This document shows, in pieces, positions 4,753 through 16,463 of a stretch of 32,761 nucleotides of DNA. The position numbers and the translations under genes are program-made. The DNA comes from a virus. The DNA lies in IMG/VR virus record IMGVR_UViG_3300047510_001639, positions 1 to 32,761 of that record; one strand, written 5' to 3'. The notes under the pieces are model-generated. The model did not search any database. It saw only the letters and a list, made by a program, of their open reading frames with translations, and was not told the DNA's origin. Position 1 is the stretch's first letter. Each line of letters starts with the position of its first letter.

Positions 4753-6065
4753 TAAAGTCAACGAAGGAAGCCAAGTTCAAAGCACTTGGCCAAAAAGCAG
4801 CAGACAACGCAGTGGTCATTGAAGGCTACGCCAACAAGTTCCAGTCAGACGCTTACAATGAGCGCATGGATCCATTGAGCGTCAAACTCGACCGCTTCAA
4901 GCAAAACCCAATTCTTCTGTTCAATCACGACATGAACTATCCTGTTGGCAAGGTCGTTGCCGTGGAACCTCGTGAGGATGGCTTGTTTGTCAAAGCTGCC
5001 GTCAGTCATGCTGACCACGAAAAGATTGCCTATGTGCGCGAGCTAGTTGCCGATGGTACGCTCTGCACTTTCTCTGTGCGTTTTGCTGGCGAACAAGTGG
5101 TCGAAGATCCGGAAGTCGCTGGTGGTAAGCTCATCAAAAACTGGGAATTGCAGGAGGTAAGTATCGTGTCCATTCCAGCGCAACCGGATTCCACATTCTC
5201 ATTGGCAAACGCCAAGTCGCTTGGCGAAGCTCGTCAGATGGTTCTCAAAGCCAAAGGAGCAATGGTCGCTCAAGTGGCTGCTGAGCACATCGCCAAGCTC
5301 GAAGAAGCAGGCGAAAAGAAAGAAGACCTGCTTGAGAAGATTTCCGAGCAGTCTGGCAGTGAGCCTGGACAGCTTGCTGAAGTCCTCGCTGGCAACGTGA
5401 CTCCAGTTCCAGAGCCTGTGCTGTCGGCACTCGCTTCGGTTCTTGGCATCGAATCCAACCTGCTTGCTGAACACAACGCACACGACGTTGAAGCTCAGAA
5501 GAAGATGGACGCTGAGAAGCCTGAAGAGAAGATGGAAGACAAGCCAGAAGAAAAGAAAGAAGATGAGAAAGCAGAGTATCCTTCTCTGTCTCAAGCTGTG
5601 CAAGAATGTGTTTCTGAGAAGATTCCAAAACTCATCGCTGAAGGCAAAGAGCAAGAACAAGCCGTGGCCATTGCAATCTCGATGTGTTCAAAGGAAAAAG
5701 GTTGCTCAGAGTTTCAACCAACTCGTGAGATGATGGCCAAGTGGCTTGATGATTGCGACAAAGTAAAGCAAGCTGATCAAGAAGGCACACCTCAAGAATC
5801 GGTCGCTGTACCGAACAAGGAACCAGAAGGCATGAATGACAACGCCGTTTTGATGTTGATGAAGTCGCAGCTTGAGATGCTTGGTTCCATCTCGGTCAAG
5901 CTCGACAAGCTGGCTGAAGTGTTCATGGCCGCGGCTGAAAAGCCAAAGGTTGAAGCTGAAGTGGAAAAAGAAGAGCCTGAAGCCGAAATGCCAGCAGAGG
6001 CAGCCGAGCAAATGAAGGCCATTCTTGACCGCTACGAGGCCAAGCTCAAAGGCTTGCTCGCTTGA
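4749..6065 (+). CDS. Prohead maturation protease with scaffold-like C-terminus
   Basis: HK97-family prohead serine protease (residues about 15-160) joined to a long scaffold-like tail. Candidate catalytic residues are H60 in LLFNHD and S109 in CTFSVRF, with an acidic residue in WELQEVSIVSIPA completing the site. Residues 180-240 are helical. Residues 250-275 are an extremely Glu/Lys-rich linker. Residues 277-313 hold a module with VSEKIPKLIAEGKEQEQAVA followed by IAISMC, a motif I recognise as recurring in phage head proteins. The last 80 residues are acidic and probably coiled-coil, as expected for an internal scaffold that the protease destroys during maturation. It overlaps the portal gene by four bases and precedes the capsid gene. 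Protease assignment is firm; the scaffold role is inferred. Confidence 0.92.
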   Translation: MIKSTKEAKFKALGQKAADNAVVIEGYANKFQSDAYNERMDPLSVKLDRFKQNPILLFNHDMNYPVGKVVAVEPREDGLFVKAAVSHADHEKIAYVRELVADGTLCTFSVRFAGEQVVEDPEVAGGKLIKNWELQEVSIVSIPAQPDSTFSLANAKSLGEARQMVLKAKGAMVAQVAAEHIAKLEEAGEKKEDLLEKISEQSGSEPGQLAEVLAGNVTPVPEPVLSALASVLGIESNLLAEHNAHDVEAQKKMDAEKPEEKMEDKPEEKKEDEKAEYPSLSQAVQECVSEKIPKLIAEGKEQEQAVAIAISMCSKEKGCSEFQPTREMMAKWLDDCDKVKQADQEGTPQESVAVPNKEPEGMNDNAVLMLMKSQLEMLGSISVKLDKLAEVFMAAAEKPKVEAEVEKEEPEAEMPAEAAEQMKAILDRYEAKLKGLLA

Positions 6066-6088
6066 AAATTCTGTCCGTGTGATACACT
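6062..6088 (+). promoter_or_regulatory. Putative promoter for the major capsid gene
   Basis: TTGAAA at 6062-6067 is followed by 15 bases and an extended -10-like TGATACACT at 6080-6088. The 11-base core TGTGATACRCT recurs in the gap before the tail tube gene (14601-14611). Both copies precede a short leader hairpin and a strong ribosome site. The -35 match is fair and the spacing is slightly short, so the recurrence is the main support. Confidence 0.42.
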
Positions 6089-6098
6089 GTTACTCGGA

Positions 6099-6143
6099 GC
6101 CTCATGACGAGGCGTTTAACTTTGCGGCAGTCAGCCGCTTTTT
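6099..6143 (+). other. Two tandem leader hairpins before the capsid gene
   Basis: Hairpin 1 pairs GCCTC (6099-6103) with GAGGC (6109-6113) around loop ATGAC. Hairpin 2 pairs GCGGC (6124-6128) with GCCGC (6134-6138) around loop AGTCA and is followed by five T (6139-6143) and immediately by the GGAGG ribosome site at 6144-6148. Each has a 5-bp stem and a 5-base loop. Hairpin 2 resembles a weak intrinsic terminator for readthrough from the protease gene. It could equally stabilise the capsid mRNA or hold the ribosome site open. Confidence 0.55.
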
Positions 6144-6152
6144 GGAGGAAGT

Positions 6153-7535
6153 ATGTCGAATTTTGAGAAACGGCTGGCTGAGTTTGAAAGCAAAGTTCAG
6201 TCTGCTGTCGGTGAAATTGAAAAGGCCAAGTCGGCTGGTATCGTTGGTGGAGCAACCAGCTTCAGCAACCGTAGCAACAGCGACGAGCAAAAACTTCTCG
6301 CTTCTTTCGGCGCTGCAAACGTCAAGCAGCTCCTTGAAGTGAACGTCGCTCATCCTCGCTTTGCACACGTCAACGACAATCTGAAGTCTGCTGTTATGCA
6401 GCTCAAGAAAGACATGGACATCGCTCGCATGTCGGCTCAGATTTTCGGTGGCCAACCTCAAGACCGTGGCGACGAAGACCGCGCTGCTCACGTCAAAGGC
6501 GTTCTCGAAACTCCTTTCGCTCGCATGGTTGACCTCAAGGCTCGCTTGAAGAGCTTCGGTTCCACAGTTGCTGGTGACGGCGATGAATGGGTTCCAACTG
6601 CAATCTCGGCTTCGTACATCGAAGAGTATGAGCTTGAGAAGAAACTGGCTGCTGCATTCCGCGAAATCCCAATGAGCAGCAATCCTTTCGAATTGCCTGT
6701 TCAGTACGGCGTGACCAAAGCTCGCTTGATTGGCGAAGGCGCTGCTGCAACCGACGCAAACTTCGGAACTGAGAAGATTCAATTCTCGGCACCTAAGTTG
6801 GTTGAATACTACCTGTTGCCTGAAGAACTGAACGAAGACTCTGCTCCTGCAATCCTTGAGCTGGCTCGTCAGGACGTTCTCGCTGCTCAGTTGCGCGCTG
6901 TTGAAGATGCAATCATCAACGGTGACACAACTGGAACACACATGGACGCAGACACGACTGCTGCAAGCAGCAACCGTAAGGCTTGGAAAGGCCTTCGTAA
7001 GCTCGCTCTCGAAGCAAGCTCGACTGTTTCCTTCTCCGGCGCTGGTGTCAGCAAGACTGGCCTCGACGCAATGCGCAAGCTGATGGGCAAGTACGGCACG
7101 AATCCAAAAGAACTCGCATGGGTTGTTGGCCCAAGTGCTTACGCTCAGATGTTGAACATCGACGAAGTTGCTACTGTTGAGAAGTTTGGCCCACAGGCTA
7201 CTATCCTCAGCGGCGCTCTGGCTGTGTTCCGTGGTATCCCAATCGTTGTGTCTGAGTTCATCCGCGAAGACCTCAACGCTTCTGGTGTTCAAGACGGCGT
7301 AACAGTCAACAGAACTGTTGCTCACCTTGCGAACATTCGTCGTTTCTACCTTGGACGTCGTCGTCCAATCCGCGTCAAGGTTCAGCAAGACGCTCGTGCA
7401 GAGTACGATCGTTGGCAGTTGGTTTCTTATCAGCGCGTGGACTTCAAAGGCCACAAGCAAGCTGGTCAGACCTACGCTGGCGGTGAAACATCCTCTGAGC
7501 GTTCATCGGTTCTTGGAATCAACATCCTCGCTTGA
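6153..7535 (+). CDS. Major capsid protein, HK97 fold
   Basis: Main shell protein of the icosahedral head, 460 residues. The first ~110 residues are helical and charged (FEKRLAEFESKVQSAVGEIE), as expected of a delta/scaffold domain removed by the prohead protease. The rest reads as a classic HK97-fold subunit: VDLKARLKSFG, an E-loop region, a spine-helix stretch LELARQDVLAAQLRAVEDAIINGD, the A-domain segment LAWVVGPSAYAQML, then GIPIVVSEFI and a C-terminal RRFYLGRRRPIRVKVQQDA strand. The strong GGAGG site at 6144-6148 is four bases before the ATG. A promoter-like motif lies upstream and a strong terminator downstream, so this gene probably has its own abundant transcript. The exact cleavage point is not determined. 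Confidence 0.96.
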   Translation: MSNFEKRLAEFESKVQSAVGEIEKAKSAGIVGGATSFSNRSNSDEQKLLASFGAANVKQLLEVNVAHPRFAHVNDNLKSAVMQLKKDMDIARMSAQIFGGQPQDRGDEDRAAHVKGVLETPFARMVDLKARLKSFGSTVAGDGDEWVPTAISASYIEEYELEKKLAAAFREIPMSSNPFELPVQYGVTKARLIGEGAAATDANFGTEKIQFSAPKLVEYYLLPEELNEDSAPAILELARQDVLAAQLRAVEDAIINGDTTGTHMDADTTAASSNRKAWKGLRKLALEASSTVSFSGAGVSKTGLDAMRKLMGKYGTNPKELAWVVGPSAYAQMLNIDEVATVEKFGPQATILSGALAVFRGIPIVVSEFIREDLNASGVQDGVTVNRTVAHLANIRRFYLGRRRPIRVKVQQDARAEYDRWQLVSYQRVDFKGHKQAGQTYAGGETSSERSSVLGINILA

Positions 7536-7550
7536 TGACCTCAAGCAAGG

Positions 7551-7562
7551 TATGATGAGAGC
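7551..7562 (+). promoter_or_regulatory. Putative -10 element shared with position 15965
   Basis: TATGATGAGAGC here matches TATGATAAGAGC at 15965-15976 with a single G/A difference. Both lie in the gap downstream of the two cassette genes. TATGAT is a good -10 hexamer, but no convincing -35 is visible. If initiation occurs about seven bases downstream, the new transcript would start within the terminator stem and lack its 5' half, so it would escape termination. Confidence 0.3.
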
Positions 7563-7587
7563 AGCTTAACCGCTGCTCTTTTTTTTT
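7558..7587 (+). terminator. Strong intrinsic terminator after the capsid gene
   Basis: An 8-bp stem AGAGCAGC/GCTGCTCT (7558-7565 with 7572-7579), a 6-base loop TTAACC, and a run of nine T (7579-7587). It lies 23 bases after the capsid stop codon. Confidence 0.92.
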
Positions 7588-7610
7588 GCCTTTACAAACT
7601 GAGGTTCGAG

Positions 7611-8861
7611 ATGGCGATAGTTGACCTACCGCTTGTCCAGATAAAGGAGTTTGAAACACAAACTCTTTTTCCTTTGAGAGAAGTTGGCCCTGGAACGTAT
7701 CACACGCAGTTGCAGATTGAGGGCAATTCGATTCTGTCGAGCTTGCTTGTCACGCACGTTTCTCCAGACGCCTCAATCCAGGTCAATTATTTCCAGACCA
7801 CGACAGGTGACGAGGACGAAGAACGCACACCGCTTGTGAACCACACGCCAAAGACCACAGGTTCGATGGCAGCCGACACAATCATCGTGGCTCGCGTTCA
7901 TTTGAAACCTGTCTGCGAGGTCATAATCACTGGCGGAACTGTGACCTTCGGCTTGATGGTCACAATGGTTTCAGCCTTCGCATCGGATATTGAAAGCTCG
8001 CTCTTCAAAGACGGCTACTTCGTCAACGGCACAGAGCGCGGTATTCCGCTGATGACCTTTGATGATGCTTCTGGCCAAATGAAGTTCATGAAGTCAAAAG
8101 GTGGAAATCTAATTGTTTCTGAAGAGAAGCAAGGCGATCCAATTCACCTGACACATTCTGACACTTTGCTTCCAAATGAAAGGCGCTTGATATTGGCCAA
8201 TCAGCAATTTGAAAAGTCTTTCAGGATGAGCCAATTCACGGTTGTCTCTGCAAGCGACTATCGAGTGTCTGTGCAAATCAACGGCTCTCTTGCACTTTCA
8301 AGCCGGACAACCAAATATCAACCACAATCTGACCAACTTCTTGATCCTTACAAGGTCGCGCCAAAGAACTCGCTTGTGACCATCGAGGCTGAGCGTTTAT
8401 CGAGTGATGATGATGGTAGTTTAGATGTGTACTTGCGAGGCTATGAGTTTATCAACGAAGAAGAGGAAGCCATGAGCAGTCTTACAAAGGTCGTATTCAA
8501 CGCAACAGGAGCCTTGATTCTGCCGTTCAAAGCAGTTGCCTGGGAAGACAACAACTCGGTGTCTTTGGCGGATGCTGATGGCTTGAATCTTGATGATTTC
8601 GCAGGTGTCACTCAAGACGGTATCGCTCACCTCGGCTATGGAATCATTCACAAGATTGGTGAAGTTCCAAATGCCTTGCTTGGAAAAGGCGCAGTTGCTG
8701 GTCAGCCGGTATATCTTTCCACCACTCCAGGCGAATTGTCTTTGACTCCTCCAGCATCTGGAACGGTCTTCCGCATCGGTCGTGCAGAGCCACCAAGTGG
8801 AGCGCACACTGGCGAAGCAACATCGCTGTTCATTGATCCACAAATCATCGCAGAGGCATAA
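7611..8861 (+). CDS. Beta-rich virion structural protein (decoration or fibre-base candidate)
   Basis: A 416-residue protein of mostly beta-strand character, without membrane segments or catalytic motifs. Residues 1-280 are unrecognised. Residues about 285-416 form a compact beta domain: an AVAWEDNNSVSLADADGLN segment, then LGKGAVAGQPVYLSTTPGEL and FRIGRAEP. The same pattern (a turn with GQ/GE plus Y, an ADAD-like turn, a G-PG/AGQ turn followed by YL/CFVS, then G-A) occurs in the C-terminus of the large fibre at 9063 and in the middle of the protein at 25279. Its position right after the capsid gene suggests a head-associated role such as decoration or an attachment base for the fibre. That role is inferred. 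The ribosome site is weak (GAGGTTCGAG before the ATG). Confidence 0.7.
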   Translation: MAIVDLPLVQIKEFETQTLFPLREVGPGTYHTQLQIEGNSILSSLLVTHVSPDASIQVNYFQTTTGDEDEERTPLVNHTPKTTGSMAADTIIVARVHLKPVCEVIITGGTVTFGLMVTMVSAFASDIESSLFKDGYFVNGTERGIPLMTFDDASGQMKFMKSKGGNLIVSEEKQGDPIHLTHSDTLLPNERRLILANQQFEKSFRMSQFTVVSASDYRVSVQINGSLALSSRTTKYQPQSDQLLDPYKVAPKNSLVTIEAERLSSDDDGSLDVYLRGYEFINEEEEAMSSLTKVVFNATGALILPFKAVAWEDNNSVSLADADGLNLDDFAGVTQDGIAHLGYGIIHKIGEVPNALLGKGAVAGQPVYLSTTPGELSLTPPASGTVFRIGRAEPPSGAHTGEATSLFIDPQIIAEA

Positions 8862-8862
8862 A

Positions 8863-9060
8863 ATGAGTGATTCGCAAAGACAAATATTCATCGACGGAAT
8901 ACCGATGGAATCAATAAAAGATGACCAAAAATTGGTAACCTTCTTTGAAGAATTTGATGATACCATTTACCAATCTGCAAACAGGAAGTTCGAGCAGTTG
9001 TGCGAGAAATACGACAAGAAGGCGACGTTGACCATTCTTGTTAAATTTGAGGAGTCGTGA
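8863..9060 (+). CDS. Small conserved-type phage protein, unknown function
   Basis: A 65-residue soluble, acidic protein (IDGIPMESIKDD, FFEEFDDTIYQSA) ending in KKATLTILVKFEES, an alternating beta-strand end. The start at 8863 is chosen because GAGG lies six bases upstream and the ATG follows one base after the preceding stop. An upstream in-frame start at 8782 would lie deep inside the previous gene. It is sandwiched between two structural genes, so an assembly partner or chaperone for the adjacent fibre is plausible. No family is recognised. Confidence 0.72.
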   Translation: MSDSQRQIFIDGIPMESIKDDQKLVTFFEEFDDTIYQSANRKFEQLCEKYDKKATLTILVKFEES

Positions 9061-9062
9061 AT

Positions 9063-12020
9063 ATGGCCACGCAGAATTTTCAGTTGATTCACTGGGATGG
9101 CACGAAGCAAAAACGTGTTGAATCCCAGACCATGGAACTCAAGCTCGGCAAGTTGGCCATCGGCTCGCTTGCTGACATCAAAGAAATTGGCGGAAAACTC
9201 GACATCGGTGGAGCAATCATCACCAACGTCGGTGCTCCAGTTGATGCTTCTGACCTTGCATCCAAGGGCTATGCAGATTCAGCCGCTTCTGGCGCTGTTG
9301 CTCCTGTGCAAGCAGAAGTTGACGCAGTGGAAGCTGCTCTTGCTCAAGAGTTGGTTGACCGCGCTGCTGGTGACGCTTCCACATTGGTTGACGCAAAAGC
9401 CTATACAGACGCAGAAATCCTTGCTGCTTCCGGTGGACTTGGCGGAGACATTTCCGAACTGCAATCCGATTTGGCTCAAGAGATTCTTGACCGCCAAGCA
9501 GGAGACACTGCGCTCCAAACCTCAATCACAACCTTGCAAGACCTCAAAGACGCGCAGGTTGTTTGGGTTTCTAAATCCGGCAATGACTCAACTGGAAACG
9601 GTGGTCAGCACAAGCCATTTGCAAGCCTTACTGCTGCTTTGGCATCCATCACTGATGCAACTCCAAGCAAACGCTACGTCGTTTTGATGCACGCTGGTAG
9701 CTATGCCGAAGCCGGAGCTGTTGCTCTCAAAGCGAACGTGTTCGTCGTTGGTGCTGTCAGAGACGCAGTGCGCATTACGGCAAGCAGCTTTACAATGGCT
9801 TCTGACTTCAACCAGGCAGCAGCAAACGATTGCCGTTCTGGATTCACAAACGTCGTTCTGATTGGCGCTTGCGATTTCAACTGGCAAACAGTCACGTCGC
9901 CTGCTGGAAAGCTGTACTTCAACCAAGTCACTTTCAACAGCGCAGTGACTCTGTATGGTCACAACAACGCCATCGCTCAAGCACAGTTCCATTCTTGCTT
10001 GTTCTATTCTTCCTTCACGGTCAGCGGCATCAACGTCGGCTTGCATGTGAACAACATCCACTTTGGAAACATCGTCCTCAACCAGCATCCAAATGGTGGA
10101 ATGGCGACAATCCTGAACGCTTCTGGTGGATATTGCGGTGGAACAGCAACATTGACGGCATCGACAAACGACTTCAACCGTCGCGTGTCCGTGTTTGCCA
10201 AGAACTTCAACTTCAACGCTTTGTCGGTCAATGGCCCTTCGGCTTACTGCGACCTTGATGACGACTCTGCTCCAAGACAAGCGTCGAACCTGACATCTTC
10301 TGATGGCGGAAACGTCGTTTACGTTTCAAGCACTGTCCCACACAAGTCCAACGAGCGCAGCATCGGTGACCTGGGCAAGCAGTACCTGTACACATTCTCG
10401 TATGTGTTCTCGTCAACTGACTCTGACCTGTACGTCATCTCGATGGGCAATGCTTATGCTGCCGCATCGACAGGGCGTTCGATTTTCGTTGAATCCGATA
10501 GCTACGGATTGCAACCAAACGTCAACGGCGGTGACATCAACATCACGACCGCTGAAACTTCTGGAACAGGCGTTCGCGGTAAGATTAAGCTCACAGGTCG
10601 CCAGCTCGATGTTTCGTCGATGGCAGTCAAGAACATTGCTGACGCAGTTGATGCGCAAGATGCCGTCTCGAAAGCACAACTTGATGCGGCAATCTCTGCT
10701 GAACAATCTGCTCGCTCAAGTGGCGATGCAAGCACGTTGTCTTCTGCTCAAGCGTATGCCGACCAGAAGGTTGCAGACCTTGTAAACGGAGCTCCTGCAA
10801 TCCTTGACACGTTGAAAGAGCTTTCTGACGCGCTCGGTGCTGATGGAAACTTCGCTGTCACAATCACCAACTCCATCGCTGCTGTTCAGGCTGAAGTTGA
10901 CGCTGAAGAACTCGCAAGAGCTTCTGCCGTCACTGCACTTGAAGGCGACATCGCCGCTGAAGAGACTCGCGCTCTTGCTGCTGAAGGCGCTCTCGACACA
11001 CGCTTGGATGTTATCGAAGGCTCTGGCGCTGGTTCGGTTGCCAAGGCTCAGCTCGATGCTCAAGCATATGCTGACGCTGCTGTGTTGGTTGAAAAAGGTC
11101 GTGCTGAGGCTGCTGAATCCGCGCTCCAAGGCGAAGTTGATGCCGTTGAGGCAGACTTGGCCCAAGAAATCCTCGACCGCGCTGCCGCTGTTTCTGCTGA
11201 ACAATCACGCGCTGAAGCCGCTGAACTTGCACTGCAAGGCGAAGTGGACGCTGTTGAAGCTGATTTGGCTCAGGAACTCTTGGATAGAGCTGCTGCTGAT
11301 ACAACTCTTCAAGGCAATATCGACGCCGTTGCTGGCGACTTGGCACAAGAGCTTCTCGACAGAGCAGCTGCCGACACAGCATTGCAAGGCGAAATTGATG
11401 CGGTTGAAGCTGACCTCGCTCAAGAGCTTTTGGACAGAGCCGCAGCCGTTGCAGCGGTTCAAGCTGAAGTGGACGCCGAAGAAATTCGTGCTGCTGCTGC
11501 TGAGTTGGCACTTCAAGGTGAAATTGATGCCGAGGAAACTCGTGCATTGGCTGCTGAAGCTGCTTTGCAAGGCGAAATTGATGCCGAAGAAGTTGCTCGT
11601 GCAGCGGCAGATACTGCTCTGCAAGGCGAAATCGACGCTCTGGAAGTGGTCGTTTCTGAACTCAACCTCATCAGCAAGACTGCCGATGCTGCAATCTCTG
11701 CTGGCCAAATCTGCTACATCAAGTCCAATGGCAACATCGACTTGGCTGACGCTGACTTGGATATGAGCGACGCTGCTTTGGTCATCGCTGCTGCAAGCAT
11801 CGCTTCCGGCGCTTCTGGCAAGGTTGTCATCAAGGAAGGAACCGTTGTCGGTGGCTTCTCTGGACTTGTTCCAGGCAAGAAGTGCTTCGTTTCTAAGACC
11901 GCTGGTGAAATGGTTCAGGCTTTGACGGGCTTCGCATCAGGCAACTCGGTGTATTGTGTTGGACGTGCTATCTCTGCAACAGAGATTGCGTTCCAGCCTG
12001 TCTATGAGTTTGAATACTGA
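9063..12020 (+). CDS. Large fibre protein with beta-helix and coiled-coil repeats
   Basis: A 985-residue fibre. Residues 1-75 are an attachment-like start ending IGGAIITNVGAPVDASDLAS, a phrase typical of phage fibre shafts. Residues 80-160 are an Ala-rich coiled coil. Residues about 163-400 begin VVWVSKSGNDSTGNGG and KPFASLTAALASI, the usual opening of pectate-lyase-like right-handed beta-helices, which bind or cut polysaccharide. Residues 400-530 are mixed beta. From about 540, and most regularly at 687-865, come tandem coiled-coil repeats around ALQGEIDAVEADLAQELLDR. Residues 865-985 are a beta domain shared with two other proteins here. The start at 9063 has GAGGAG eight bases upstream. 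Position between capsid and connector genes leaves open whether this is a tail or a head fibre. Enzyme activity cannot be judged. Confidence 0.85.
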   Translation: MATQNFQLIHWDGTKQKRVESQTMELKLGKLAIGSLADIKEIGGKLDIGGAIITNVGAPVDASDLASKGYADSAASGAVAPVQAEVDAVEAALAQELVDRAAGDASTLVDAKAYTDAEILAASGGLGGDISELQSDLAQEILDRQAGDTALQTSITTLQDLKDAQVVWVSKSGNDSTGNGGQHKPFASLTAALASITDATPSKRYVVLMHAGSYAEAGAVALKANVFVVGAVRDAVRITASSFTMASDFNQAAANDCRSGFTNVVLIGACDFNWQTVTSPAGKLYFNQVTFNSAVTLYGHNNAIAQAQFHSCLFYSSFTVSGINVGLHVNNIHFGNIVLNQHPNGGMATILNASGGYCGGTATLTASTNDFNRRVSVFAKNFNFNALSVNGPSAYCDLDDDSAPRQASNLTSSDGGNVVYVSSTVPHKSNERSIGDLGKQYLYTFSYVFSSTDSDLYVISMGNAYAAASTGRSIFVESDSYGLQPNVNGGDINITTAETSGTGVRGKIKLTGRQLDVSSMAVKNIADAVDAQDAVSKAQLDAAISAEQSARSSGDASTLSSAQAYADQKVADLVNGAPAILDTLKELSDALGADGNFAVTITNSIAAVQAEVDAEELARASAVTALEGDIAAEETRALAAEGALDTRLDVIEGSGAGSVAKAQLDAQAYADAAVLVEKGRAEAAESALQGEVDAVEADLAQEILDRAAAVSAEQSRAEAAELALQGEVDAVEADLAQELLDRAAADTTLQGNIDAVAGDLAQELLDRAAADTALQGEIDAVEADLAQELLDRAAAVAAVQAEVDAEEIRAAAAELALQGEIDAEETRALAAEAALQGEIDAEEVARAAADTALQGEIDALEVVVSELNLISKTADAAISAGQICYIKSNGNIDLADADLDMSDAALVIAAASIASGASGKVVIKEGTVVGGFSGLVPGKKCFVSKTAGEMVQALTGFASGNSVYCVGRAISATEIAFQPVYEFEY
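11121..11660 (+). repeat. Coiled-coil coding repeats, 18- and 25-residue units
   Basis: In-frame tandem units within the large fibre, residues 687-865, each beginning ALQGE[IV]DA or a close variant. Counting unit starts gives lengths 36, 25, 25, 25, 18, 18, 18. The 25-residue unit is the 18-residue unit plus seven residues. At DNA level the units share CAAGGCGAA-type cores with silent variation, so the repeats have diverged rather than just duplicated. Confidence 0.85.
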
Positions 12021-12027
12021 TTGACCT

Positions 12028-12057
12028 GGCGAGGTGGAGAAATCTGCCTCGCCTTTT
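12028..12057 (+). terminator. Intrinsic terminator after the large fibre gene
   Basis: A 7-bp stem GGCGAGG (12028-12034) with CCTCGCC (12047-12053), a 12-base loop, and TTTT at 12054-12057. It lies seven bases after the fibre stop. The T-run is short, so partial readthrough into the next gene is likely. Confidence 0.7.
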
Positions 12058-12073
12058 ATCAAAGGATTGAACA

Positions 12074-12877
12074 ATGACTCAGCGACTCATTGCGGTCGAT
12101 GACCAGACAGGAAAGCGCAGTCTCATCGCTGTGCCTTCTGGTGGTGGCATTGATCCAGACGTTCAAACATTCGCAGCCAACGGAACTTGGACAAAGCCAA
12201 ACGGCTGCAAGCAAGTGCGAGTCATTCTGATTGGCGGTGGCGGAGGCGGAGGTTCTGGTTCTTACGGAACAACAGGCACTCAATGCGGTGGCGCAGGGGG
12301 ATCTGCTGGCCAAGTCGTTATCAAAGACCTCGTGGCAAGCGATTTGGCTTCAACCGTTGCCGTGACCATCGGAGCAGGTGGCGCTGGCGGAGTTGCTGTC
12401 TCAACCAACGGCTACAACGGTAAAGACGGCTCAGACGGTTCGCTCACTTCATTCGGTACACATGGAAAGGCGTTTGGTGGCAAAGCTGGAGCAGGCGCAG
12501 GAAAGTTCTTGTCTGGTCGCATCACCATGCAATTCGCAGAAGGTGGCGCAGCAAGACCTGGTGGAACACGAGGCGCAGGCGGAAGAACGACTGCCGGAGA
12601 ATCGGCTGTTGACACAACAGAAGCACCAGGCTCAGGAGGCGCAGGAGCAGGCATCACGACAACTGGACTTTCTGGCGGTTCCGGTGGAGTCAATCAAGCT
12701 GGTCTTGGTGGCAACGGCGGCAACGGTGGCGCTTCCAAGGCAACTGGCGCAGGTGACGCTGGTGTCGCAGGCTCAGGCTATGGTGCAGGCGGTGGAGGCG
12801 GTGGCGCGTCAAAAGGAACGGCTTCCGGTGCTGGTGGTAATGGCGCATCCGGCTATTGTGTCGTAATCTCGTACTGA
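12074..12877 (+). CDS. Glycine-rich adhesin-like fibre-tip protein
   Basis: A 267-residue protein. Residues 30-60 read as the opening strands of a glycine-rich receptor-binding domain (FAANGTWTKPNGCKQVRVIL, then a run of seven glycines). The remaining 200 residues are more than one-third Gly with Ala/Ser/Thr, and end in a closing strand ASGYCVVISY. Such domains, rich in polyglycine segments, are found in phage adhesins at fibre ends, where variable loops contact the receptor. It follows the large fibre gene, so it may cap that fibre. A weak AAAGGA site lies upstream, and a terminator separates it from the fibre gene. The receptor is unknown; the adhesin role is inferred from composition and domain opening. 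Confidence 0.82.
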   Translation: MTQRLIAVDDQTGKRSLIAVPSGGGIDPDVQTFAANGTWTKPNGCKQVRVILIGGGGGGGSGSYGTTGTQCGGAGGSAGQVVIKDLVASDLASTVAVTIGAGGAGGVAVSTNGYNGKDGSDGSLTSFGTHGKAFGGKAGAGAGKFLSGRITMQFAEGGAARPGGTRGAGGRTTAGESAVDTTEAPGSGGAGAGITTTGLSGGSGGVNQAGLGGNGGNGGASKATGAGDAGVAGSGYGAGGGGGGASKGTASGAGGNGASGYCVVISY

Positions 12878-12888
12878 AGGAGAATCCA

Positions 12889-13098
12889 ATGAAACTGAAA
12901 CTTGTTGAACTTGACCATCTCGTTGTCTTCCTTGAACCAAAGTACGTCCTCATTGAAGGCGAAGTGGAAGTCTCTGAAGCCGAAGGTCACAAGCTGCTCG
13001 CTGCATATGCCGGTAAGCTCGAAAAGGTCGAAGAAAAGAAAGCTGTCGCTGCCAAAGCCAAGGTCATGCCAGAGGTAAAGGATGAGCCTAAACTCTAA
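12889..13098 (+). CDS. Small phage protein, unknown function
   Basis: A 69-residue protein: a beta-rich half (LKLVELDHLVVFLEPKYVLI) followed by a helix (SEAEGHKLLAAYAGKLEKVE) and a Lys/Ala/Glu-rich tail. The start at 12889 has AAGGAG six bases upstream. An upstream in-frame start would overlap the previous gene. It overlaps the connector gene by 17 bases, so the two are probably translated together. Small proteins of this make-up often lie before gp6-like connectors, but the function is not known. Confidence 0.72.
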   Translation: MKLKLVELDHLVVFLEPKYVLIEGEVEVSEAEGHKLLAAYAGKLEKVEEKKAVAAKAKVMPEVKDEPKL

Positions 13099-13711
13099 TG
13101 CGCTCTGCACAGTTGCGCAGTGCAAAACTTATCTCGACGTTCAATCTGCTGACACGTCGCAAGATGCAAAAATAGAACAGCTCATCAACGCTTCGTCGTC
13201 GATGATTGAAAACTATCTTGACCGAAAACTTATCTATAATCAGTACATTGAACTGCACGATGGTCGAGTCAATGACCGCTTGCTGTTGAAAGAATGGCCT
13301 GCTGAAAAGCCGTCAGAGATTCGCTCTGACACGCTATGGTCATTTGACAACACCACCATCATGCCTCCAGAAAATTATGAGATGGATCAGCAAACGACCG
13401 TTGTCCTCAAGGGCTACTTCTTTCCGCGAGGCAACCGAAATATCAAGGTGACCTATTATGCCGGATATGCGAGTCCTGTTTTTGGTGGCGGAGGTTTTCC
13501 GTTGCCGACAGAACTCAACCAAGCCTGCATTATGCTCGTCGCATGGCAGTACCAGCTACGAGCTGACAGACGCCTCGGCATTGCTTCAAAGGGCAAGCAA
13601 GGCGAGTCGATTTCTTATGTCAAAGGTCTTCCGACTGAAATCTCATTGATGCTTGATTTGCATATGCGCATGGAATTGCCATTTACCTCAACAGGAATCG
13701 GCAACGGATGA
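13082..13711 (+). CDS. Head-tail connector, HK97 gp6/phiE125 gp8-like
   Basis: Adaptor ring protein that binds below the portal and closes the filled head. The 209-residue sequence opens with the family signature: CTVAQCKTYLDVQSADTSQD followed by an IEQLINASSSMIENYLDRKL helix. It then has beta strands ending in KVTYYAGYASP and a C-terminal helical part (LNQACIMLVAWQYQLRADRR). It starts inside the end of the small upstream gene, with GAGG at 13072-13075. It ends ATGA-overlapped with the next joining gene. Both the sequence pattern and the position support the call. Confidence 0.88.
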   Translation: MSLNSNALCTVAQCKTYLDVQSADTSQDAKIEQLINASSSMIENYLDRKLIYNQYIELHDGRVNDRLLLKEWPAEKPSEIRSDTLWSFDNTTIMPPENYEMDQQTTVVLKGYFFPRGNRNIKVTYYAGYASPVFGGGGFPLPTELNQACIMLVAWQYQLRADRRLGIASKGKQGESISYVKGLPTEISLMLDLHMRMELPFTSTGIGNG

Positions 13712-14160
13712 TTCGCTCAGACGCCAAAGCACTTGAAGCTCGCATCATGGCAAAGCTCGAAAAGTTCTTGCCACAAAGCGAGCAGTCTCAAAAGGCCTTG
13801 TTTAAGATTGGTGTTTTGCTTGAGCGAAAAATGAAGATAAATGCTCAATCTCAAAAGATACGAGATACAGGTGCTTTGATAAACTCCATCAAATACGAGA
13901 TTGATGGAAACACTCTTTATGTTGGTTCTTTTGGCGTTCCTTATGCTAAGTATCACGAGTTCGGTGCGAACCTTGGGCCTGCTGGAATGAGAGCAATGTT
14001 TGCAGCAATGCGAGCAAGACGTGCTAAATCTGCTATGCGATATAGAGACAAGAACGTCGTTGTGAACCAATCTATTCGTGCGAGGCCTTTCGTCAGACCA
14101 GCTTTTGAAAGTAATCTAGGAGCAATCAGAAGAATCCTTGCAGAATACGGAGCACTGTGA
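13708..14160 (+). CDS. Head-tail joining/tail completion protein, HK97 gp10-like
   Basis: A 150-residue neck protein. The pattern RDTGALINSIKYEIDGN, then YVGSFGVPYAKYHEFG and RARPFVRPAFE, is that of the HK97 gp10/Mu gpG-type virion morphogenesis family. Members help finish the head-tail junction or tail end. The central Arg-rich stretch (AMRARRAKSAMRYRDK) is basic, possibly facing nucleic acid or partner rings. It begins within the stop of the connector gene (four-base overlap) and its TGA shares a base with the next start, so the three genes form a coupled neck operon. Confidence 0.87.
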   Translation: MIRSDAKALEARIMAKLEKFLPQSEQSQKALFKIGVLLERKMKINAQSQKIRDTGALINSIKYEIDGNTLYVGSFGVPYAKYHEFGANLGPAGMRAMFAAMRARRAKSAMRYRDKNVVVNQSIRARPFVRPAFESNLGAIRRILAEYGAL

Positions 14161-14600
14161 TGCCAGTTGCAAATGACTCAGAAATTCTTGATGCTCTGGA
14201 GACTCAGCTCAAAACTCTCACTTGGGCAAAGGTTGTTGAGACTGAAAATATCAAGTTGGCCTTTTCAGAACTTGGCGAGCATGAAGTTCCTTACATTCAA
14301 GTTTACGACAACGGCCAGGTCTTTGAACATCAGCGAGGCGAAGTGCTGACACGCTGGCAGGTGGCTGTTGAGCTTGTGCTTCGGTCGGCTTCAGAGAACC
14401 AAGTCAACATGAGAACACTCTTGGACAAGCGCCAAGAAGTTGAACAGTGCATCGGCTCCAAGGTGAACCTCGGCATTCCAGGTGTGGTCAATGTGCTGTA
14501 CCTTAGCAACACGCCAGACATCCAGATTGTGAAGCCGTTTTATGTGACGACTATGCTCTTTGAGGTGGTTTACCGGAAACGGTATGTGTCTGATTGTTGA
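14160..14600 (+). CDS. Tail terminator protein (probable)
   Basis: A 146-residue alpha/beta protein in the standard place for the tail terminator, which caps the tail tube and joins it to the head. The pattern fits lambda gpU-like proteins: an N-terminal helix (EILDALETQLKTL), a strand pair (VPYIQVYDNGQVF, RWQVAVELVLRS), a helix (MRTLLDKRQEVEQC) and a final strand FYVTTMLFEVVYRKRY. ATG 14160 overlaps the previous TGA; GTG at 14157 is an alternative that adds one residue. The upstream gene supplies no clear GGAG site, so translation is probably coupled. The assignment rests more on order and secondary structure than on specific motifs. Confidence 0.75.
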   Translation: MPVANDSEILDALETQLKTLTWAKVVETENIKLAFSELGEHEVPYIQVYDNGQVFEHQRGEVLTRWQVAVELVLRSASENQVNMRTLLDKRQEVEQCIGSKVNLGIPGVVNVLYLSNTPDIQIVKPFYVTTMLFEVVYRKRYVSDC

Positions 14601-14611
14601 TGTGATACGCT
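14601..14611 (+). promoter_or_regulatory. Putative promoter for the tail tube gene
   Basis: TGTGATACGCT matches the motif before the capsid gene (TGTGATACACT at 6078-6088) at 10 of 11 bases. TGATACGCT reads as an extended -10. No clear -35 hexamer is visible at 15-18 bases upstream, where the DNA is still within the preceding gene. Confidence 0.4.
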
Positions 14612-14625
14612 CTCAAATGAACTTC

Positions 14626-14640
14626 GCTCAAAGACTGAGC
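14626..14640 (+). other. Leader hairpin before the tail tube gene
   Basis: GCTCA (14626-14630) pairs with TGAGC (14636-14640) around loop AAGAC. It has the same 5-bp stem and 5-base loop geometry as both hairpins before the capsid gene, and the loop differs from ATGAC there by one base. It would lie near the 5' end of a transcript from the motif at 14601-14611. Confidence 0.5.
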
Positions 14641-14665
14641 TTCGCCTTATGTTTTGGAGGACAAA

Positions 14666-15904
14666 ATGTCGAAGAATTATGCTTCAATTTATGCAAACAC
14701 TGGTGACAGCTCGGCGCTGAACCAACGATTTTACCTCAAGGAAGAAGTCATCAAAGGAACGATGGCCATTCCAGCGGCATCGGATTACTTCTTTGCATTG
14801 TCTGGCGGCTCCATCAGCTTCAGCCAGCCAATCACTTCGTCGCCTCACCGTTCTGGCCGCCACAACAACAACACCATCAAGGAAAAGAAAGCTCTTGAAT
14901 GGTCGCTGCCAACGATGGTCAACATCGATACTGCTGCGGCACAAGGCACCGGCGCTCTTGAGCCTGCGCTGCGCGTCCTTTGGAAATCGCTGCTTGGTCG
15001 TGAAACGGTTCCAGGCGCGGTGCAATATGACTCCGCTCAAGATCCATCCGTCACGTTCAGCATCTTGGAAGTTGGCGACAAGTGGGCCAAGCAGGCTTTT
15101 GGCTGCTTTGTGGACGCTTGCGAAATCTCTCTTCCAGGCGACGGCCAATCGCAGTTGAGCTGGTCTGGAATGGGCGTTGAATCCTATTTGGTCGGCATCG
15201 GCAAATCGACAATCAGCAACAACGCTGGACAGACAGTCACAGTACAGGCTGGCGAAGGCAAACGCTTTCCAGTTGGTGCTCGCGTCATGTTGGTTGAAGC
15301 TGACGGCTCGACTCGTTCGGCTGACACGCCTGCTGGCTCGGCTCGTAAGGTTGTCTCTGTATCTGGTGACGTCATCACTCTCGACGGCGCTGCTTTGGCT
15401 GACGCTGATGGCTCATCGACTCCTCTTTATCTGTGCTACTTCGAGCCTGTCCTTGCAGGAACCGAAGGCATCGACAATCCGCAAACTGGCTTGCAAGGTA
15501 CTTTCACAAGCTCCAGCATTCCAGGCAATCCTTGCATCCGTTCGGCAACCATCTCTGTCGCAAATGGCCATGAGATTGTGAACTACTGCTGGGGAACAGA
15601 CGCAGCCTCTGGCTCCATCTTCGTTCCAGCAAGCCGCTTGGAAGTCAGCGTTTCAATCGAGCTGAACCTGAACCACGAGTTGGTTGAGTTCTATAACGCA
15701 GTGCAGTCTTTCGAAGCTCAAGACCTGAACTTCAAGCTCGGCGACACAGCGTTGCGCTTCTTGGAAATCGACCTGCCAAAGGTCGTCTTTCAAGTGCCTT
15801 CAATCGACGTGCCTGAAACTGGTTCGATTCCTGTCTCCTTCGAAGGAACCGCTTACCAGAGCGCACTTGACGCCGCTGATGAAATCGTGGTGTCATACCA
15901 GTAA
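14666..15904 (+). CDS. Major tail tube protein
   Basis: A 412-residue protein that polymerises into the tail tube. Position (after terminator, before chaperone and tape measure), beta-rich content, and the isolated high-expression cassette all point here. Seen: tube-like strands FFALSGGSISFSQPI and an ALEPALRVLWKSLLG helix, with end strands IPVSFEGTAYQ. Residues about 176-260 look like an inserted beta domain (FPVGARVMLVEADGSTRSAD, VISVSGD-type turn), which could project from the tube. The chosen ATG has GGAGG (14656-14660) five bases upstream; an upstream TTG at 14654 overlaps this site and is rejected. At 412 residues it is longer than a minimal tube protein, consistent with the insertion. 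Confidence 0.85.
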   Translation: MSKNYASIYANTGDSSALNQRFYLKEEVIKGTMAIPAASDYFFALSGGSISFSQPITSSPHRSGRHNNNTIKEKKALEWSLPTMVNIDTAAAQGTGALEPALRVLWKSLLGRETVPGAVQYDSAQDPSVTFSILEVGDKWAKQAFGCFVDACEISLPGDGQSQLSWSGMGVESYLVGIGKSTISNNAGQTVTVQAGEGKRFPVGARVMLVEADGSTRSADTPAGSARKVVSVSGDVITLDGAALADADGSSTPLYLCYFEPVLAGTEGIDNPQTGLQGTFTSSSIPGNPCIRSATISVANGHEIVNYCWGTDAASGSIFVPASRLEVSVSIELNLNHELVEFYNAVQSFEAQDLNFKLGDTALRFLEIDLPKVVFQVPSIDVPETGSIPVSFEGTAYQSALDAADEIVVSYQ

Positions 15905-15930
15905 CCAACAAGAGGACGGTATCCTTTCTG

Positions 15931-15961
15931 ACTCGATGGCCTTTGGCTGTCGAGTTTTTTT
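15931..15961 (+). terminator. Strong intrinsic terminator after the tail tube gene
   Basis: ACTCGA (15931-15936) pairs with TCGAGT (15950-15955); five further inner pairs, two of them G-T, close on a TTT loop. A run of seven T follows (15955-15961). It lies 26 bases after the stop codon. Confidence 0.9.
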
Positions 15962-15964
15962 GTT

Positions 15965-15976
15965 TATGATAAGAGC
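15965..15976 (+). promoter_or_regulatory. Putative -10 element before the tail chaperone operon
   Basis: TATGATAAGAGC matches TATGATGAGAGC at 7551-7562 with one difference. TATGAT is a five-of-six match to a -10 box. TTGGCT at 15943-15948, 16 bases upstream, is a weak -35 candidate within the terminator stem. A promoter is needed here if the terminator is efficient. Confidence 0.35.
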
Positions 15977-16010
15977 GCACAGGAGTGCATCAACCAAGAA
16001 GGAAGTCATC

Positions 16011-16463
16011 ATGGCAATCAATTTGTCTGCTATTCAGGACTCTGTTTTCACATTCATCTCATCCAAAGACTCGGCTATTGGCAATCCGCAAAACTATGCG
16101 GCATACTTGGAATCGCTTGATGAGTCGCTGCTGGCGCTGAATGGCGAACCAACACGCTTCCATCTTGCGGTTTCGTCGAAGCTCAAGGACGTGCTCGCTG
16201 CGAAAGATGGTCTGACCTCAATCGCAATGAAAGCCAAGGATGGCGGTGACATTCCACTTTACTCGCTGATGTATCAGCAAGTTCGTGTTTCTCTCAAAGA
16301 CATCAAAACTGGCGCTGAATCAATGTTCCGCAAAGGTGCTGATGGTCACGCTGCCGATGACCTCATGGCTGCCTTGGCCGCGAACGACATCTTGCCTGAG
16401 CTGTTTGCTGCATTGCAGAACAAACAACAGAACCGGAGTCCTGAAATCGCAAAAAAAGACTAA
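16011..16463 (+). CDS. Tail assembly chaperone, short form (lambda gpG-like)
   Basis: A 150-residue mostly helical protein located between the tail tube and tape measure genes, where long-tailed phages carry chaperones that coat and fold the tape measure protein during assembly. It opens INLSAIQDSVFTFISSKDSA and has helical stretches LKDVLAAKDGLTSIAMKAK and DDLMAALAANDILPELFAAL. The ATG at 16011 has AAGGAAG upstream; longer in-frame starts would run back through the terminator and are rejected. Near its end GCA AAA AAA GAC TAA holds an A AAA AAA slippery site, allowing a longer -1 product. The role is inferred from gene order and frameshift architecture, as chaperone sequences vary. Confidence 0.85.
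   Translation: MAINLSAIQDSVFTFISSKDSAIGNPQNYAAYLESLDESLLALNGEPTRFHLAVSSKLKDVLAAKDGLTSIAMKAKDGGDIPLYSLMYQQVRVSLKDIKTGAESMFRKGADGHAADDLMAALAANDILPELFAALQNKQQNRSPEIAKKD

Follow-up and report, generated by a model that had tools for sequence, protein, structure and literature searches.

Matching promoter-like, leader-hairpin and terminator elements flank the capsid and tail-tube genes in a family of phages

Tailed phages require hundreds of copies of their capsid and tail-tube proteins, and few of the products of neighbouring genes. In T7, the gene for the major capsid protein (gene 10) stands in a unit of its own, made of the phi10 promoter, a ribosome site and the T-phi terminator, which became the basis of the pET vectors (PMC7205610). 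In the Pseudomonas phage LUZ100, the capsid gene has a local promoter and, directly downstream, a strong terminator, as seen by ONT-cappable-seq (PMC10134795); in the Listeria phage CKA15, promoters are predicted ahead of the gene for the major capsid protein, and the tail-tube gene is followed by an intrinsic terminator (PMC12282133). At the RNA level, 5'-terminal stem-loops of the ompA/papA type are known to stabilise mRNA (reviewed in PMC3997798). Here we consider a viral record 32,761 bases long, a fragment (32.8 kb) which we refer to in its entirety as the window, and argue that its capsid and tail-tube genes are probably separate late units, each with its own promoter, leader hairpin and terminator (Table 1).

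The names that a first-pass annotation, made from the letters alone, had given to the two genes are right, as judged by PHROG matches and by AlphaFold and Foldseek. Both genes begin with ATG, at 6153 and 14666. T5-like capsids are distant relatives of the capsid gene product by tblastn. The AlphaFold2 model of the tail-tube protein is confident (pLDDT 86), and Foldseek matches it to the tail tubes of P74-26 (8ed0, E=7e-15) and T5 (9iny, E=8e-15); among solved structures its best relatives come from SH-Ab15497, P74-26 and T5, each being a tail tube or major tail protein. Searching genomes with the tail-tube or capsid protein found no prophage relatives, and phage records gave no match to the tail-tube protein and only distant ones to the capsid and terminase. 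The phage family carrying both units therefore appears to be uncultivated, its relatives being uncultivated contigs.

Table 1. Positions of the genes and sequence elements discussed in the text
Feature	Position	Strand	Remarks
Possible -35, capsid gene, TTGAAA	6062..6067	+	15-nt spacing kept in relatives
Extended -10 promoter, capsid gene, TGTG-A-TACACT	6078..6088	+	exact motif match; TRTGnTAnnnT form in relatives
Capsid leader hairpin 1, GCCTC-ATGAC-GAGGC	6099..6113	+	compensatory stem changes in L177, L168; loop ANGAN kept
Capsid leader hairpin 2, GCGGC-AGTCA-GCCGC	6124..6138	+	invariant in leaders of relatives
CAGTCAGCCG, alternative partner of capsid codons 7-10	6128..6137	+	10-bp pairing
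Shine-Dalgarno stretch, capsid gene, TTTTGGAGGA	6140..6149	+	exact copy
Major capsid protein, 460 aa	6153..7535	+	PHROG_10 and others 'major head protein', E=6e-18
CGGCTGGCTG, capsid codons 7-10	6171..6180	+	complement of 6128-6137
-10-like element abutting capsid terminator, TATGAT	7551..7556	+	kept as TAnnAT in closer relatives
Intrinsic terminator, capsid gene	7557..7580	+	G+C-rich stem, then T run
Third strong terminator	12028..12053	+	behind 987-aa tail-fibre-like gene
Extended -10 promoter, tail-tube gene, TGTG-A-TACGCT	14601..14611	+	exact motif match; TRTGnTAnnnT form in relatives
Tail-tube leader hairpin, GCTCA-AAGAC-TGAGC	14626..14640	+	NNGAN hairpin recurs in tail-tube leaders
Shine-Dalgarno stretch, tail-tube gene, TTTTGGAGGA	14652..14661	+	exact copy
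Major tail tube protein, 412 aa	14666..15904	+	AlphaFold2, Foldseek, PHROG_290 match
Intrinsic terminator, tail-tube gene	15930..15956	+	G+C-rich stem, then T run

The annotation had pointed to a motif, TGTGATACRCT, ahead of each gene, and a scan of both strands found these two exact copies and no other in the window. The motif is not enriched in the window when two mismatches are allowed (10 found, 13.9 expected), whilst the composite of promoter and hairpin with an A-N-G-A-N loop occurs twice against an expectation of 0.02; the signal is thus the composite. Across some 100 related contigs this composite stands almost exclusively upstream of capsid and tail-tube genes; relatives keep the pair ahead of these two genes, the conservation for which the annotation had suggested looking. 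One could argue that the likeness of the two leaders is mere chance, combined with features general to strong expression such as AT-rich -10 elements, small hairpins and strong ribosome sites. The poor showing of the loosened motif would suit this reading, as would the fact that the shared ten-base ribosome-site stretch is not conserved as such; the low composite expectation, the recurrence before the same genes and the covariation of the hairpin stem speak against it. We find it scarcely credible, the relatives and the covariation ruling it out.

What kind of promoter might this be? Extended -10 promoters, read by the main sigma factor (TRTGn-TATAAT), carry TRTG one base before the hexamer and have a weak or absent -35. 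The class is defined by TRTG at -17 to -14, then one free base and TAnnnT, a form that both window sites, TGTG-A-TACACT and TGTG-A-TACGCT, show; the pattern across relatives is TRTGnTAnnnT, with versions such as TGTGATACACT, TGTGTTACACT, TGTGCTACACT and TATGATACAGT in capsid leaders and TGTGATACGCT, TATGATACGCT, TGTGATACATT and TGTGATACTCT in tail-tube leaders. Variation falls mainly on the free base and the inner positions of the hexamer: in the capsid promoters of relatives 'n' is A, T or C, and TRTG, TA and the final T do not change. Counted over non-redundant leaders, the pattern is present in 11/18 closer capsid leaders (p about 2e-13) and 6/9 closer tail-tube leaders (p about 8e-9), whereas other genes have it in 4/335 of their leaders. 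Hexamers of plain TATAAT type show no enrichment in the closer leaders. Even in L195, whose capsid is 47% identical, GTGGTAAGCT lies upstream of both genes, so that both promoters deviate from those of the window in the same way. The possible -35 of the capsid gene overlaps the stop codon of the upstream gene and has a counterpart in the L195 capsid leader (TTGACT at an equal 15-nt spacing); for the tail-tube gene no -35 could be made out. Both window sites thus share with the extended -10 class the placing of TRTG one base 5' of the hexamer and the weak or absent -35, but their hexamers, TACACT and TACGCT, are unusual for it. Because of the motif's form, we infer that the main host sigma factor reads both sites. 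That form, together with the pattern of variation, argues against a promoter for a phage single-subunit RNA polymerase, and in this respect the annotation's 'phage-specific way' was not borne out as worded, since the motif reads as an ordinary host-type extended -10.

The hairpins described in the annotation, with a 5-bp stem and a 5-base loop (ATGAC and AAGAC), are indeed present before both genes, and comparison with relatives bears out the leader hairpin as an RNA structure. Stems vary between leaders and the G-A at loop positions 3-4 is kept: L177 has the stem GCACA/TGTGC with the loop ATGAG, the tail-tube hairpin of L169 has AGTCA/TGACT with AGGAA, and the stem GCTCA/TGAGC is found with the loops ATGAT (L168), AAGAC (tail tube) and AGGAT (L195). 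In L195, hairpins with the AGGAT loop accompany the promoters of both genes, and stem pairing thus extends to a relative with a capsid only 47% identical. In an alignment whose rows were hand-picked for pairing, 29 cells are altered on both sides of the stem versus 9.8 in shuffles; an alignment of capsid hairpin 1 unselected for pairing has 3 pairs changed on both sides (0.5 in shuffles), and that of the tail-tube hairpin has 2. Hairpins with an NNGAN loop, at -70 to -20, occur in 11/27 distinct tail-tube leaders, where shuffles give 0.4, in 8/57 capsid leaders, where they give 1.0, and in 7/335 control leaders of other genes. Several distant relatives have the tail-tube hairpin without a clear promoter, and the full set is missing from most of the distant relatives. 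An Rfam search over 5900-16200 returned no credible family match.

What could this hairpin do? A transcript is expected to start about 7 bases after the -10 hexamer; on this assumption, the 5' end would be separated by about 3-5 nt from capsid hairpin 1, and by about 7-9 nt from the hairpin of the tail-tube leader. Hairpins near the 5' end protect messages in E. coli (PMC3997798), and the position of the capsid hairpin fits such protection, the tail-tube hairpin being a less good fit for its simple form. The conserved loop, on the other hand, argues for recognition by a protein. Most likely, then, the hairpin would protect the 5' end of the message, bind a protein via its loop, or do both. A further alternative, which we hold to be a serious one albeit of minority weight, is that the hairpin is the site of a specific RNA-binding protein, of phage or host, which regulates both messages jointly - for example by repressing translation, or by loading an antitermination or protection factor - and that the promoters are incidental. 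A loop A-N-G-A-N that is kept while the stems differ is the signature of sequence-specific loop recognition, two leaders that are not linked have the hairpin in common, and before the tail-tube gene of distant relatives it persists where the promoter is not clear. However, no candidate protein was found, the stem varies in length, and some relatives have no hairpin. A host operator of the CsrA/RsmA type, with A-N-GGA-N in the loop, would be a special case, to which the AGGAN or CGGAT loops after an A in L195, L044, L045, L169, L178, L221 and L017 bear a resemblance. We consider it very unlikely: the loops of the window and its close relatives (AAAGAC and ATGAC) contain no GGA, so the core requirement of CsrA is missing from the window's own group and is found only in distant relatives.

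The ribosome-site stretch that the annotation saw as shared is exact at both genes, and these are its only exact copies in the window; relatives keep just the Shine-Dalgarno core, and we therefore do not regard the longer stretch as a special shared element. Some leaders elsewhere place this site within structure. In one subgroup the capsid leaders (L044:1420-1590, L045:2712-2882 and L048:1392-1562) bear TTCCTTTGAAGGAA or TTCCTCAAGGAA; either would mask the Shine-Dalgarno site, which again points to control of the capsid gene at translation. In several distant relatives a hairpin of the form TGCC-ARGGAG-GGCA, with the Shine-Dalgarno within or beside it, lies directly 5' of the start codon (capsid leaders of L016, L017, L020, L175 and L178; tail-tube leader of L017). 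A scan of viral contigs for the promoter plus CTCAANGANTGAG gave 25 stretches, 9 or 10 of them being capsid or tail-tube leaders of this family; the others are mostly a Shine-Dalgarno inside CTCAAGGAGTGAG directly before a start codon, or chance. Indeed, in unrelated viral contigs (L228, L229, L235, L246 and others) CTCAAGGAGTGAG hairpins with the Shine-Dalgarno in the loop adjoin start codons, downstream of TTGAC-type promoters.

The capsid leader holds a second hairpin, absent from the annotation, which is invariant in 11/11 leaders save for one loop insertion (L168); the search pattern AACTTTn{0,3}GCGGCAGTCAGCCGC finds 13 stretches of viral contigs, every one upstream of this capsid gene. 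The loop and 3' arm of hairpin 2 can pair instead with codons 7-10 of the capsid gene (CAGTCAGCCG with CGGCTGGCTG, including one G-U), at -16.1 kcal/mol versus -9.5 for hairpin 2 itself, and minimum-energy folds of the capsid leaders contain this longer pairing. Within the coding sequence, no stretch invariant at nucleotide level among six diverged relatives is longer than AACGGCTGGCTG (12 nt, the next being 8), which has CGGCTGGCTG as its core; it holds a CGG codon, rare in the capsid gene, that is kept in all; taken blind to position, a run of this length is of modest significance (P=0.04). Synonymously recoded versions pair with an energy as favourable as that of the real gene in 0.4-2.9% of trials for each sequence (p=0.004-0.03, the sequences being related to one another). 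Complementarity between leader and coding sequence over the whole leader was uninformative, and the test was then restricted to hairpin 2; the fold of the entire capsid leader is only moderately more stable than those of shuffles (z=-1.9). An attenuator or terminator role for hairpin 2 was rejected, as the T run that follows is not conserved (GCCGCG, GCCGCGATA and GCCGCTAC in relatives).

As the long pairing can form without the 5' arm of hairpin 2, and this arm is nevertheless invariant, we read the two structures as alternative states, which suggests two-state control of capsid translation. Hairpin 2, forming early, would leave the ribosome site free, and the longer structure, forming later, would partly close it; competition with the stabler pairing would probably confine translation to transcripts that are newly made or are being actively translated. 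Or could hairpin 2 and the invariant codons instead reflect protein binding or a constraint at codon level, with no switch? We place this reading only a little short of an even chance. Being invariant, hairpin 2 offers no covariation by which to prove its pairing, and codons 7-10 could be kept for another reason; however, the invariant coding stretch exactly complements the loop and 3' arm of the hairpin, the rare codon within it is retained throughout, and the folds of lowest energy contain the long pairing.

Just 3' of each gene comes a G+C-rich stem with a T run, the strong terminator that the annotation had placed there. That of the capsid gene is conserved in relatives with a variable loop, and most closer relatives have a tail-tube terminator at the same place with a different sequence. 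Only three strong terminators lie on the + strand of the window; since the third stands behind another gene, having a terminator does not by itself set the capsid and tail-tube genes apart, and the annotation's view that no other gene has the set holds for the full set and not for this part of it. No matching promoter-hairpin set follows the third terminator. Two further elements were lacking from the annotation. Abutting the capsid terminator is a -10-like element, which is TATGAT, TACAAT or TATAAT in closer relatives; a start about 7 bases past it falls inside the 5' arm of the terminator, so that the transcript would escape termination, and the genes 3' of the capsid may thus have a promoter embedded in the terminator. 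Ahead of the ORF at 16011, a partial third unit spans 15943-16011, comprising TTGGCT-16-TATGAT (the -10-like element at 15965), a GCAC-AGGA-GTGC hairpin and a ribosome site; it is kept with changes in L040-L042 and not in L043.

Taken together, both genes have a promoter-like element on one side and a terminator on the other, in line with the separate units that the annotation had proposed, and the following scenario can be put forward. The RNA polymerase of the host, carrying the main sigma factor, would start at the extended -10 in the gap before each gene, giving a transcript that begins a few bases 5' of the A-N-G-A-N hairpin; each message would be translated from a strong Shine-Dalgarno site and end at the intrinsic terminator just past the gene. 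In this way the two abundant virion proteins could gain short and perhaps stable messages of their own, apart from those of low-copy neighbour genes. We also entertain a joint reading, tentative and on balance doubtful, in which the A-N-G-A-N hairpin is a family-specific element whose bound protein would co-regulate both messages, and the capsid leader is a two-state RNA; there, the early hairpin 2 would yield to the pairing with codons 7-10, limiting translation temporally or by feedback.

Here, one phage group would meet its copy-number need by placing the same promoter-hairpin-terminator unit on both genes, a unit kept over large divergence. To our knowledge, little is known of RNA-level control of virion protein ratios in tailed phages, for which the conserved loop and the possible capsid switch are testable candidates. 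The elements could also serve as compact parts for expression design.

How does this locus compare with those already described? The likeness to T7 gene 10 lies in a strong promoter directly 5' of the capsid gene, a strong ribosome site, and a strong terminator directly 3'; as sequence elements, promoter and terminator enclose the capsid gene with no gene in between. The T7 unit, however, uses a promoter for the phage RNA polymerase and is not known from T7 genes other than the capsid gene, whereas the window has a sigma70-type promoter, a tail-tube gene with an equal set, and a leader hairpin with a conserved loop. LUZ100 likewise has promoter and terminator around the capsid gene, there demonstrated by transcript mapping, but this is a T7-like podovirus with a phage-RNAP promoter, and no matching tail-gene unit is seen in the accessible part of its report (PMC10134795). 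CKA15 is unrelated and contractile-tailed, and no shared leader hairpin is seen in the accessible part of its own (PMC12282133). With the ompA/papA type, the locus shares a hairpin near the 5' end of what would be a highly expressed message; that effect is generic to structure, whereas here the loop sequence is conserved and the tail-tube hairpin lies several bases further in. No description of host-type promoters used in this way for both genes, of the shared leader hairpin or of the alternative pairing was found in the searchable open literature. The unit of promoter, capsid gene and terminator is already known from T7 and LUZ100; what is different here is that the promoters are of host type, that both genes share one leader hairpin, and that the capsid leader has an alternative pairing.
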